IMG/VR virus record: IMGVR_UViG_3300005264_000011
Span: 1 to 43,703 of that record
Length of the DNA: 43,703 nucleotides
DNA from: a virus
Strand: one strand, 5' to 3'
Shown here: piece after piece, positions 4,113-43,703 of the stretch
Numbering within the stretch: the first letter of the stretch is position 1
Layout of the letters: each line of letters starts with the position of its first letter
The notes under the pieces: generated by a model
What the model was told of the DNA's origin: nothing
Seen by the model: only the letters and a program-made list of their open reading frames with translations
The model's database searches: none
Program-made: the position numbers and the translations under genes

Positions 4113-4301
4113 TTAAGCAAAACCAAACCATACTCCTGCGATAACAAATACAAACAATGCAACTAACAAGAATGCGAAAATTATAGCAATTGATAGTTTA
4201 ATCACTTGATACTTCTCATCATCTTCTTTTTTATAACATTCATGCATAATCATAGTAAAAATAAGAAGAGTTAAAGTTGTTAATATTAGCTTAAGAAACA
4301 T
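4113..4301 (-). CDS. Small membrane protein, two transmembrane segments
   Basis: 62 residues from the ATG at 4301, which has GGTGGAG upstream; the frame extends to 4331 but without a ribosome site. Two hydrophobic helices (LKLILTTLTLLIFTMIM and SIAIIFAFLLVALFVFVIAG) flank a short charged loop. Size and topology resemble holins or small phage inner-membrane proteins, but it lies far from the endolysin, so holin function is only one possibility. Confidence 0.6.
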   Translation of the reverse strand: MFLKLILTTLTLLIFTMIMHECYKKEDDEKYQVIKLSIAIIFAFLLVALFVFVIAGVWFGFA

Positions 4302-12822: not shown

Positions 12823-13182
12823 CTACCTCCTAAACCTTTCTTTTATTTTACTCGGAATGAATCTCCGGACAGTATTTTTCTCACTTTTAAACAATTCTAC
12901 GATACAGCCTTGAAGCCTTCCTCTTCTAGCCATAGCATTAACATAGGTCGGCGGCACCTTCATATACTTAGCCACATCTTTATTATCCCATAAATCAATA
13001 TCATTACTCCCTAGGATAGCTCTAACCTTCAAGGGATTGAACCGTATCGTTCTTTTTCTTATACCAACGAACGGAACAACCAAGATCTGATTAAAAACGC
13101 CAACACGAACCTTTTTATATATTGTTGCCTCGGATATTTTAAATGTTTTAGCTAAGTCGCTTACCGTCATCAACTTAAGCAT
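12823..13182 (-). CDS. Tandem double-HTH DNA-binding protein
   Basis: 119 residues made of two diverged copies of the same HTH unit: residues 1-56 (LMTVSDLAKTFKISEATIYK ... RKRTIRF) and 58-119 (LWDNKDVAKYMKVPPTYVN ... TVRRFIPSKI). With the adjacent 63-residue gene this gives three related units in a row, implying duplication and fission or fusion. It is the first gene after the promoter at 13224-13251 and lies next to the long inverted repeat, so autoregulation or origin binding is an attractive inference. CAGGAG precedes the ATG. Confidence 0.75.
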   Translation of the reverse strand: MLKLMTVSDLAKTFKISEATIYKKVRVGVFNQILVVPFVGIRKRTIRFNPLKVRAILGSNDIDLWDNKDVAKYMKVPPTYVNAMARRGRLQGCIVELFKSEKNTVRRFIPSKIKERFRR

Positions 13183-13251: not shown

Positions 13252-13287
13252 CAACCGTTTATTTCTGGTACTTTCAAAAACACTCCT

Positions 13288-13438
13288 ATACTTATCCTTA
13301 TTTAGTCTAAGTGTTTTTTTATGCGGTAAATTCATTCTCGAAAATGTCTATGGGATTTTTAGAAAACCTTTTTCCATAGAAATTTTTTCTTAACCTTTTA
13401 CCGCACCAAACAACACTTAGACTAAATAATATAAGTAT
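13288..13438. repeat. Long nested inverted repeat; candidate origin or operator
   Basis: Outer arms 13288-13295 and 13431-13438 (8 bp), then 13300-13315 and 13412-13427 (16 bp perfect), inner arms 13322-13330 and 13397-13405 (9 bp, TGCGGTAAA), and 13347-13353 and 13374-13380 (7 bp). Each 16-bp arm contains the small palindrome TTAGTCTAA. It lies between a terminator and a promoter, so it is probably not transcribed by this operon. This 302-base gap contains no gene. Confidence 0.75.
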
Positions 13439-13440
13439 GC

Positions 13441-13466
13441 AAAAAAAAGGGCGACTCTTGCCGCCC
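13441..13466 (-). terminator. Rho-independent terminator
   Basis: On the minus strand GGGCG, loop GCAAGAGT, CGCCC is followed by eight T. It lies 19 bases after the stop of the ssDNA-binding-like gene and closes the 17.7-13.5-kb operon. The other strand also ends in a T run, so it may work both ways. Confidence 0.88.
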
Positions 13467-13484
13467 TTTTTTGCCTTTACTGTT

Positions 13485-15425: not shown

Positions 15426-15647
15426 TTATTTTTTGGAGCATTCTATAAACGCTATTTGGCGCATAAGGCCATCGTTTACAGACTCGGTATGCTTAACATT
15501 TTTTTCTAGGAAATGAAATTGATGTTTAATATCTTCTAATAAATCACAATACTTTTTATCTTCTACTGAATCACTATGAAGATAATTATACTTATATAAT
15601 TTACATGATTTTTTTTTGCAGCATATCTCACAAACTTTATCCAACAT
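15426..15647 (-). CDS. Small Cys/Lys-rich protein
   Basis: 73 residues with CEICCKKKSC at positions 6-15, two further cysteines and an otherwise charged helical sequence. It begins inside the end of the SNF2-helicase gene (11-base overlap), with a purine-rich GGGGGGTAAGGA upstream. Possible zinc binding; no family recognised. Confidence 0.55.
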   Translation of the reverse strand: MLDKVCEICCKKKSCKLYKYNYLHSDSVEDKKYCDLLEDIKHQFHFLEKNVKHTESVNDGLMRQIAFIECSKK

Positions 15648-17370
15648 AATCCTTACCCCCCTTAACTTTCTTCAGAACCTTCTCCTCCATAGCTTCTTTT
15701 CTTTTTATTAATGGAAGTAGATCCTCGTCAATTGTTCCTTTAGCCATTAAGTACCAGTATACACAAGACTTCTCGGTACTTCCAACTAGACGCCGGTTTC
15801 TTCCCTTTGACTGCTTCCAATCACCATAGCTATGGTTTAACTCGTAATAGATAGCGTGGCGAGCACACGGGATGCTGTAGCCTATCCCAGTCTGAAGCTG
15901 ACCAACCCAGACAACTGTATCGTCCTTTTGATAGTCTAAATATATCTTTTTATTCTTCTGATCACCATCATATATATAGTAACTAAGTTTTAGATCCTTG
16001 ATAAGTTTCTCAACCTTGCGAATACTCGGTTTAAATTTGCACCATATTATTATTTTTTTCTCTCCAGAGTTTAAAAGCTCTTCCACAATATCTTTTAATA
16101 CTTCTATTTTTTCGTTTGATATTTCGATATATTCATTCTTTATAGCCGTGAAGTCCTGTATCTTTGGAATAAACCCACTAGCGGCCTGTTGCCGGCGTAT
16201 GATCTCCTCGAGAGTATTACCGATAACCTTTTCTTCAAATATTGAATTCTCTATATCCTGCCAAGTAATCGTGGACTCATTTACGATCTCGTCATAGATT
16301 GCCTGAGTCCCGGGATCCAATCTAAATAATCTATTCTTGTGAATCTGTTTGGGTAGATCTACAACATCGTCTAGATCAAACCTGAGCGCATTTAAAGCAA
16401 CACGACTCTGAAGCTCTTCTTCGTTTCGGATCCCCAAAACTTGAGTGGGACCAAATCCTGCATCGAATCCACCCATCACCAAGAACTCTTCCTTAAATTT
16501 TGTATATGAGGATCCGAATATTTCCGGGTCCACAATCTTATAAGGCATAAATATATCGTTCGGCCTGTTTGCAACCATCGTGCCGGTGAGTCCTATTCGA
16601 TACTTAATAGTTCGAGCAATCTTCATGCAAGCTGTAGACCGGTAACTATTGCGGCCTTTCATAAAGTGGCATTCATCAAATACAATCATATCGAAGTGTT
16701 GATCAAGCATCGCCTGTCCCATGACCGACATCTTTCTTTCTGTGACCTCTTTTGGTTCCTTCACGCCGGTTTCAGGATTTTTTGTTAGTACTTCTTTAGT
16801 CACCTCGTAATCTGCCACTATATCGTAATTGATTACATAGAAAAGGACGTTGTTTTCATTTAGACGCTCCAAACGCTTATCAACCTTACCGTAAAGCTCG
16901 ACTGCTTCAAAATGACTATGGACCCGAACCTCCTCTGCCCAGTTCGGGATTAAAGAGGCCGGACATATTATCGCGACCTTGAAAACTTTTCGTTCTAGAT
17001 GTAATGCGACAGCCGCATCGATTGCCGCTTTACTTTTTCCAGTTCCCGGATCCGCAAATGCAAACGCCTTCTTTTTCTGGATAAATAAATTTGTTAACGC
17101 CTTTTGGTGGGAGTATGGTTTCGTTTTGTATGGGAACTCTTTATCGTATGAAATTATATTATTAAGTTTCTCTTTGAAATGGTTGTGGATCTTATCTGAC
17201 ATCTGCACACCGTTAAGCAAACAGAGTTTTTGATATATATCAATTGTAAATGGGAGCGCCCAGCACTTCTTACCCTTGAGCCACCGGGCTTTTAACATCC
17301 GCATAAAATCTTTACCGGCGAATGGACAGTATATATTAAACTGCTTATCCTTATAATGAACTCTAAACAT
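15637..17370 (-). CDS. SNF2-family DNA helicase/translocase
   Basis: 577 residues. Walker A DPGTGKS (107-113), motif II DECH (near 223), LTGTMVANRP (motif III) and a C-terminal motif VI, QSKGRNRRLVGSTEKS, define an SNF2/SWI2-type SF2 ATPase. The N-terminal 80 residues (KARWLKGKKCWALPF) resemble the substrate-recognition strand pairs found before some phage and SMARCAL1-like SNF2 proteins. It may remodel forks or promote annealing or branch migration. It is the first gene of its operon; CAGGAGGT lies four bases from the ATG and immediately after the base of the structured RNA element. Confidence 0.92.
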   Translation of the reverse strand: MFRVHYKDKQFNIYCPFAGKDFMRMLKARWLKGKKCWALPFTIDIYQKLCLLNGVQMSDKIHNHFKEKLNNIISYDKEFPYKTKPYSHQKALTNLFIQKKKAFAFADPGTGKSKAAIDAAVALHLERKVFKVAIICPASLIPNWAEEVRVHSHFEAVELYGKVDKRLERLNENNVLFYVINYDIVADYEVTKEVLTKNPETGVKEPKEVTERKMSVMGQAMLDQHFDMIVFDECHFMKGRNSYRSTACMKIARTIKYRIGLTGTMVANRPNDIFMPYKIVDPEIFGSSYTKFKEEFLVMGGFDAGFGPTQVLGIRNEEELQSRVALNALRFDLDDVVDLPKQIHKNRLFRLDPGTQAIYDEIVNESTITWQDIENSIFEEKVIGNTLEEIIRRQQAASGFIPKIQDFTAIKNEYIEISNEKIEVLKDIVEELLNSGEKKIIIWCKFKPSIRKVEKLIKDLKLSYYIYDGDQKNKKIYLDYQKDDTVVWVGQLQTGIGYSIPCARHAIYYELNHSYGDWKQSKGRNRRLVGSTEKSCVYWYLMAKGTIDEDLLPLIKRKEAMEEKVLKKVKGGKDYVG

Positions 17371-17385
17371 TTGACCTCCTGCAAA

Positions 17386-17533
17386 ATACTGTGATTAAAA
17401 AGCTCCCCACCTTCAAGTCAGCCACACCACATTGTTGCTGAACCCGGATAACCCTTGCGAGGTTGATTACTCCTCTCTCCACTCCGTTAATCACTCAGAG
17501 CCAAGAAAGTGGATCGCTTTTTAATCACAGTAT
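17386..17533 (-). ncRNA. Structured RNA element B (148 nt), closed by an 18-bp perfect helix
   Basis: Read on the minus strand, 17533-17516 pairs perfectly with 17403-17386 (ATACTGTGATTAAAAAGC and its complement). A short internal loop is followed by a second 8-bp helix (17505-17512 with 17407-17414) that needs one U-G wobble valid only in the minus-strand RNA. Inside are three small hairpins: 17488-17493/17464-17469, 17460-17464/17450-17454 and 17437-17441/17418-17422. The whole forms a closed multi-branched fold ending three bases before the ribosome site of the SNF2 gene. No known RNA family is recognised. It could be a 5' UTR regulator or a separate RNA. Confidence 0.75.
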
Positions 17534-17543
17534 CAATTTTCGA

Positions 17544-17674
17544 AGAGTCGGTCTCACACCCATACTTAGTTACTTCGTCCAAGTATCGTCCGAGGTTATC
17601 GCTAAGAGACGAACCGTCATACAACGGATTTTCTCCTCTTAGAGGCTGTGCTTTTTTAATGCCTCGCCGACTCT
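17544..17674 (-). ncRNA. Structured RNA element A (131 nt)
   Basis: On the minus strand the ends AGAGTCGG (17674-17667) and CCGACTCT (17551-17544) form an 8-bp closing helix. Inside are GAGGC/GCCTC (17661-17665 with 17642-17646), CTAAGAG/CTCTTAG (17636-17642 with 17602-17608) capped by CCGT/ACGG (17624-17627 with 17614-17617), and ATACTT/AAGTAT (17581-17586 with 17562-17567). The promoter just upstream places the predicted first base of the transcript on the first base of the closing helix. Ten bases separate it from element B. Not a recognised family. Confidence 0.72.
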
Positions 17675-17681
17675 ATAACTA

Positions 17682-17710
17682 AATATAGCAAGATAAAGAT
17701 AAATATGCAA
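17682..17710 (-). promoter_or_regulatory. Promoter: TTGCAT-17-TATATT
   Basis: TTGCAT (17705-17710) and TATATT (17682-17687) are 17 bases apart on the minus strand. Seven bases after the -10 comes A17674, the first base of RNA element A. ACTTG and a following TATAGA match the other promoters of this phage. Confidence 0.78.
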
Positions 17711-17733: not shown

Positions 17734-17765
17734 GAAAGCGACCCGAGGTGCATCGAACCGCTTTC
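17734..17765 (-). terminator. Terminator after the late operon
   Basis: On the minus strand GAAAGCG (17759-17765) pairs with CGCTTTC (17734-17740), followed by TTTATTTATATTTT. It lies 28 bases after the stop of the last late gene and just upstream of the RNA promoter, separating late from early transcription. The 423 bases from 17371 to 17793 contain only this terminator, the promoter and the two RNA elements. Confidence 0.75.
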
Positions 17766-43425: not shown

Positions 43426-43703
43426 AATTGCTCCTCTTGTAATTTTTGTCTCATAAAAGCACACTCTTCAACATCACATTCGCCATCATCGCAAGCAAAA
43501 CAATGCCATCCTGCTTCACAAAATAATGAAGAATTTTCACAGAAATCAACTATATATTCAGTGTTATTATTTAGCGATTCAAATTTAGGTGCTAATCTAC
43601 AACTTAATTCTATATATTCCAATCCATCGAAATTATCATGACCCATAACAGAAACCTTTGCTTTATTATGGCTCGTTGAAAATACAATAATTGATCTACC
43701 TTC
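43422..43703 (-). CDS. Junction-spanning Cys-rich hypothetical protein (C-terminal part)
   Basis: The gene starts at 95 at the left end and finishes here; total 104 residues. The C-terminal half has six cysteines after residue 68 (VDFCENSSLFCEAGWHCFAC, then ECDVEEC), suggesting metal binding or disulphides. ATGA couplings on both sides place it in a run between the methyltransferase and small membrane genes. Not recognised. Confidence 0.75.
   Translation of the reverse strand, partial: EGRSIIVFSTSHNKAKVSVMGHDNFDGLEYIELSCRLAPKFESLNNNTEYIVDFCENSSLFCEAGWHCFACDDGECDVEECAFMRQKLQEEQL
43642..43703. repeat. Terminal direct repeat, right copy
   Basis: Identical to 1-62; see the left copy. Confidence 0.95.

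Follow-up and report, generated by a model that had tools for sequence, protein, structure and literature searches.

A candidate structured 5' leader upstream of the SNF2-type helicase gene of a phage

In early phage mRNAs, timing and stability are set by structured leaders, few of which have been described beyond the model phages. The lambda N leader runs from the promoter pL through nutL and an RNase III hairpin to the N gene, and the put RNAs of phage HK022 are cis-acting antitermination leaders that fold at the very start of the phage early transcript. Transcripts of lambda, T7 and T3 are cut by RNase III, which can thereby expose a ribosome site, and it is established that this enzyme processes phage leaders, the lambda N leader included (PMC5371410). 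Protection of mRNA by structured or paired 5' ends is likewise established (PMC3997798 and references therein).

Here we analyze a 301-nt stretch preceding a helicase gene in IMG/VR record IMGVR_UViG_3300005264_000011, all 43,703 bases of which constitute the window referred to below. Because a 62-bp direct repeat occupies both ends of the record (1-62 and 43642-43703), it is probably a complete phage genome, and all genes with a recognized family lie on its minus strand. For the terminase, identity to the corresponding proteins of Marinitoga camini viruses 1 and 2 and phage MPV1 is 52-53%, and the primase and SNF2 helicase show 36-43% identity to proteins from a few IMG/VR records. Elsewhere, the genome encodes a fusion of ParB-N with an N6/N4 DNA methyltransferase (92-1315; phrog_498, type II MTase-like), and one of the 51 scanned proteins, all from minus-strand genes, carries a phosphopantetheine-attachment (acyl carrier protein) domain (PF00550, 3.9e-14), which is unusual in phage. 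Our tentative reading, at somewhat less than even confidence, is that the stretch serves the SNF2-helicase transcription unit, which would extend from ~17674 to the terminator at 13443, as a structured untranslated 5' leader acting in cis.

Layout of the leader and its transcription unit

Along the minus strand, a terminator-like hairpin is followed by a candidate promoter, the element E1, ten bases, the element E2, five bases, the ribosome site AGGAGG and the ATG of the helicase gene at 17370 (Table 1). Much of this had been proposed in a first-pass annotation and is borne out: the upstream hairpin (17765-17734) resembles a terminator, the hexamers TTGCAT (17710-17705) and TATATT (17687-17682) are present with a 17-nt spacer, and the predicted +1, near 17674/17675, coincides with the first base of the 131-nt E1, whose ends pair over 8 bp (P1; 17674-17667 with 17551-17544). 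After the ten-base linker, the 148-nt E2 is closed by a helix in which 18 of 18 bp are perfect (17533-17516 with 17403-17386). The distance from E2 to the ribosome site, previously given as three bases, is five (TTTGC).

Table 1. Features of the leader and of the helicase transcription unit.
Feature	Position	Strand	Basis or description
Intrinsic-terminator-like hairpin ending the upstream transcription unit	17734..17765	-	13 pairs, 6 G-C; T-rich tail TTTATTT
Candidate promoter TTGCAT-17-TATATT, extended -10 (TGC before TATATT)	17682..17710	-	sequence; prediction
E1, 131-nt four-helix fold from the predicted +1	17544..17674	-	8-bp P1 closes; z -4.2 / -4.9; MFE = centroid; P1 probability ~1.0 in leader
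ORF1, 45 codons, TTG start behind AAGAGGAG	17487..17624	-	SD scan; intermediate codon score; unusual position-specific GC; runs through E1/E2
E2 inverted repeat, 148 nt	17386..17533	-	18 perfect bp, GA/GA tandem mismatch, 7 more pairs (~27-bp rod); ~90-nt poorly defined middle
ORF2, 43 codons, GTG start	17363..17494	-	start overlaps ORF1 stop; stop overlaps helicase ATG; no SD, low codon score
Shine-Dalgarno AGGAGG of helicase gene	17375..17380	-	sequence and SD table
SNF2-type DNA helicase gene	15637..17370	-	577 aa; first long gene after leader; PF00176 2.7e-16, phrog_62 3.6e-90
Bidirectional intrinsic terminator closing helicase unit	13443..13472	-	AAAAAAGGGCGGCAAGAGTCGCCCTTTTTTTTGC

Because the -35 hexamer matches the consensus at 3 of 6 positions, the candidate promoter rests on its extended -10 (TGcTATATT); it scores 8/12, under the cut-off of the sigma-70 scan, and judged from these motifs is likely weak and sigma-70-like. 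An extended -10 look-alike at 4178-4189 was rejected, as it falls inside a probable membrane-peptide ORF. Also set aside was TTGCATAYTTAT, a motif common to 17699-17710 and 13431-13442: these are its sole exact matches, but it was picked post hoc, and chance would supply 2.5 matches with one mismatch.

Downstream of the helicase gene lie small genes, a gp34-like gene and then the bidirectional terminator, beyond which an HTH gene (12823-13182), followed by the primase gene, has its own candidate promoter (13251-13224, a 10/12 match). The first-pass annotation had suggested a leader controlling the replication operon, and the position, promoter, terminator and fold do fit the helicase unit; however, its reach would stop at 13443-13472. 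Since the primase and a second helicase are encoded past that terminator and behind the 13251-13224 candidate promoter, the leader would govern ~4.2 kb and not the whole replication region.

Predicted folds of E1 and E2

E1 folds at -47.3 kcal/mol, and the comparison with shuffled sequence that had been put forward as a check gave a z of -4.2 on the minus strand, with 0 of 200 shuffles as good, and of -2.8 on the plus strand (-4.9 and -2.1, respectively, with other shuffles); the interior, taken inside P1, still reaches -3.5. Its MFE and centroid structures are identical, pointing to a single well-defined four-helix fold, and the probability of P1, nearly certain within the leader, drops to ~0.45 once 120 more downstream bases are added. 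For E2, which folds at -61.2 kcal/mol, the strand specificity previously attributed to it is not apparent, with z at -7.2 on the minus versus -7.0 on the plus strand (-6.4 and -7.0 with other shuffles). Nor did its supposed multi-branch interior hold up: z is -1.4 to -1.6 inside the 18-bp helix and +0.2, no better than shuffles, inside the 29-nt arms, and the middle has several rival pairings, each of a probability near 0.5, so that E2 amounts to a single long inverted repeat whose middle is undefined. The 18-bp repeat itself is beyond chance, because 200 first-order Markov windows produced no perfect inverted repeat within 250 nt longer than 15 bp. As a whole, the leader has a predicted folding energy of -110.8 kcal/mol (z -6.4, beating 100 of 100 shuffles), and about half of this folding signal is the one long inverted repeat of E2. 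Its G+C content is 46.9% at 17404-17674 against a mean of 38.1%, placing it in the top 2% of windows; other measured intergenic stretches have 30-37%.

Two further ideas about these elements were rejected. A 6-bp kissing contact can be drawn between the open strand GCGAUAAC of E1 and GGGUUAUC of E2, but shuffled loops do comparably well (p = 0.39). As for an origin of E2 in a MITE or insertion sequence, its flanks (AAAATTG and TTTGCAG) are not repeats and so show no target-site duplication, and zero further copies were found in the genome, phages or plasmids.

Counted in favor of a leader are the order of terminator, extended -10, E1, E2, SD and helicase gene, the folds of E1 and of the whole leader, which beat all shuffles, the raised G+C and the improbable 18-bp repeat; counted against it are the lack of any homologue found, nearest relatives whose helicase genes have no such leader, an E2 signal shared by both strands, the poor -35 and a strong-SD reading frame (ORF1) running through the leader. 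If transcription begins at the opening base of E1 and continues through E2, the 5' end of the mRNA would be buried in P1, and a compact four-helix domain of this sort could shield the message against decay that requires a free 5' end. The E2 rod, with its 18 bp, tandem GA mismatch and 7 further bp, would be long enough for RNase III, and a cut there would free E1 and give the helicase message a short new 5' end immediately before its ribosome site, as in the lambda N leader.

The helicase operon is bounded at its other end by a second 18-bp perfect inverted repeat (13298-13429, within the region 13285-13440; arms of 33 nt, 91%), which lies directly behind the 13443-13472 terminator, intergenic between the helicase and primase units. 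It is the only other one of its length in the genome and the strongest fold in the genome scan (z -9.9 on the minus and -13.1 on the plus strand), and is possibly an origin or operator. The motif TAYTTAGTYWA, entertained as an operator, is confined to this repeat near 13.3 kb.

E2 might instead act as DNA, an inverted repeat for phage protein binding, replication or recombination whose RNA hairpin is incidental, and we regard this as unlikely. Its equal z on both strands and unstructured middle agree with such a role, as do the 13298-13429 repeat, which bounds the same operon, is flanked by a terminator and a promoter, and folds strongly on both strands, and a relative (L177) with an operator-like inverted repeat (CTATCCATT...AATGGATAG, L177:2734-2782) over the TTGACA promoter of its helicase unit. 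However, E2 is 140 nt past the predicted start site and not on the promoter, its tandem GA and a G-U pair fit RNA, and E2 and the 13298-13429 repeat have no clear sequence in common.

Small reading frames and the search for relatives

The first-pass annotation missed ORF1, a frame with a strong ribosome site inside E1/E2, which raises the prospect, in our view rather unlikely, of a small protein or leader peptide: the SD of ORF1 (GAGGAG, 8 nt before the TTG) is predicted to pair in helix P3, and translation and folding of the leader would then control each other. Finding AAGAGGAG 8 nt before a TTG speaks for this, as such combinations of SD and ORF are uncommon away from real genes (genome-wide, 8 additional cases with a strong SD and at least 40 codons, most of them plausible small genes), and so does the identical 8-nt overlap geometry of ORF1 stop with ORF2 start and of ORF2 stop with helicase start. 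Yet the start is a TTG, the codon score is only intermediate, at the 11th percentile among genes and within the top 4.5% of wrong frames, G+C by codon position is unlike that of genes, and searches with ORF1 and ORF2 found no homologue; ORF2 is probably a chance frame.

Matches to the leader itself were sought widely. Consistent with the earlier statement that no known RNA family has this layout, Rfam 15 yielded zero families above the gathering cut-off in the window and noise only at E up to 10, and the Pfam scan of window proteins turned up no reverse transcriptase, the neighbor that a retron ncRNA would call for. Leader DNA had no match in phage or plasmid collections, and in IMG/VR the E2-arm pattern went unmatched. 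A match to the arm of E2 in IMG/VR record 2518285549_000003 was put down to chance, as it falls in a coding region that lacks the fold. No copy was recovered by covariance model from 69 IMG/VR contigs containing one of two 15-base E1/E2 words, and records of terminase, primase and helicase relatives gave no credible leader match by DNA or covariance model. Single-sequence covariance models found the window alone in ~1.9 Mb of retrieved sequence, bar two weak matches at E 0.2 and 1.6, and GTDB genomes returned five distant partial primase matches only, with no prophage kin. With no homologue to align in the collections searched, evidence from covariation is absent.

The helicase operon is kept among relatives at 36-41% identity and the leader is not. 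Among the nearest helicase relatives, the stretches before the helicase gene are short or unstructured in G041 and G050, and L177 has the same order of helicase gene, gp34-like gene and terminator as here with no leader. A 25-bp perfect inverted repeat occurs at L116:16956-17016, in the related record G050. As far as is visible in these collections, which may lack near relatives of the window, the leader thus appears lineage-specific.

These searches bear on whether the leader releases stable phage ncRNAs, one or two of them, that act in trans, a reading along the lines of the ncRNA pair suggested in the first-pass annotation. The compact, well-defined predicted fold of E1 and the likeness of the E2 closing helix to processing stalks would suit this, but no terminator separates E2 from the helicase gene, there is neither homologue nor covariation, and the middle of E2 is unstructured, leaving the proposed pair unsupported and, to our mind, improbable. 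The related claim of an undescribed structured RNA element likewise found no support in the form of a homologue in the collections searched; it is quite improbable that E1 founds a lineage-specific phage RNA class not described before, in which a compact domain of four helices from +1 would sense or bind something and gate the helicase operon together with E2. Finally, pure chance, with a fortuitous fold in E1 and a recent, functionless duplication or inversion in E2, is very improbable: coding windows of the same genome also reach z -4.2 and relatives do not conserve the leader, but the 18-bp perfect repeat exceeds the Markov controls, and the leader has raised G+C and attains its z of -6.4 without any choice of inner boundaries.

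Comparison with known leaders and structured RNAs

The cis-acting leader that we favor is at present a single sequence without comparative support, a well-bounded candidate that is unproven. If confirmed, it would extend leader biology to a phage with a terminase that has its nearest counterparts in Marinitoga (Thermotogota) phages. Like GOLLD, ROOL and other RNAs from comparative genomics (PMC12286853, PMC2864571), it would be a structured RNA in a phage, but those were defined from many homologues, whereas here none was found and no Rfam model matches. With the 5'-terminal stabilizing stem-loops of the ompA and papA type it shares a 5' end predicted to lie in a stable helix, although E1 is larger and branched.

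E1 is roughly twice as large as an HK022 put site. Put sites too are folded RNA opening the transcript, as E1 is predicted to do, but the unit here spans ~4.2 kb up to its one terminator, and the genes beyond it sit behind a candidate promoter of their own. Because a single terminator (13443-13472) is followed by that new 10/12 promoter match (13251-13224) before the next gene, there is no visible need for antitermination, and a nut- or put-type leader was rejected.

In layout, the locus also resembles the lambda N leader. Neither nut nor boxA-boxB was recognized here, the first gene encodes a helicase and not an antiterminator, the middle of E2 is large, and processing is put forward here as an inference. 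Nonetheless, a long near-perfect helix of the lambda N type (18 bp, GA/GA and 7 bp) does lie between the candidate promoter and the first SD, and the two loci have in common a promoter (here predicted), a structured leader (likewise predicted) and a long hairpin that stops right beside the first early gene's SD.
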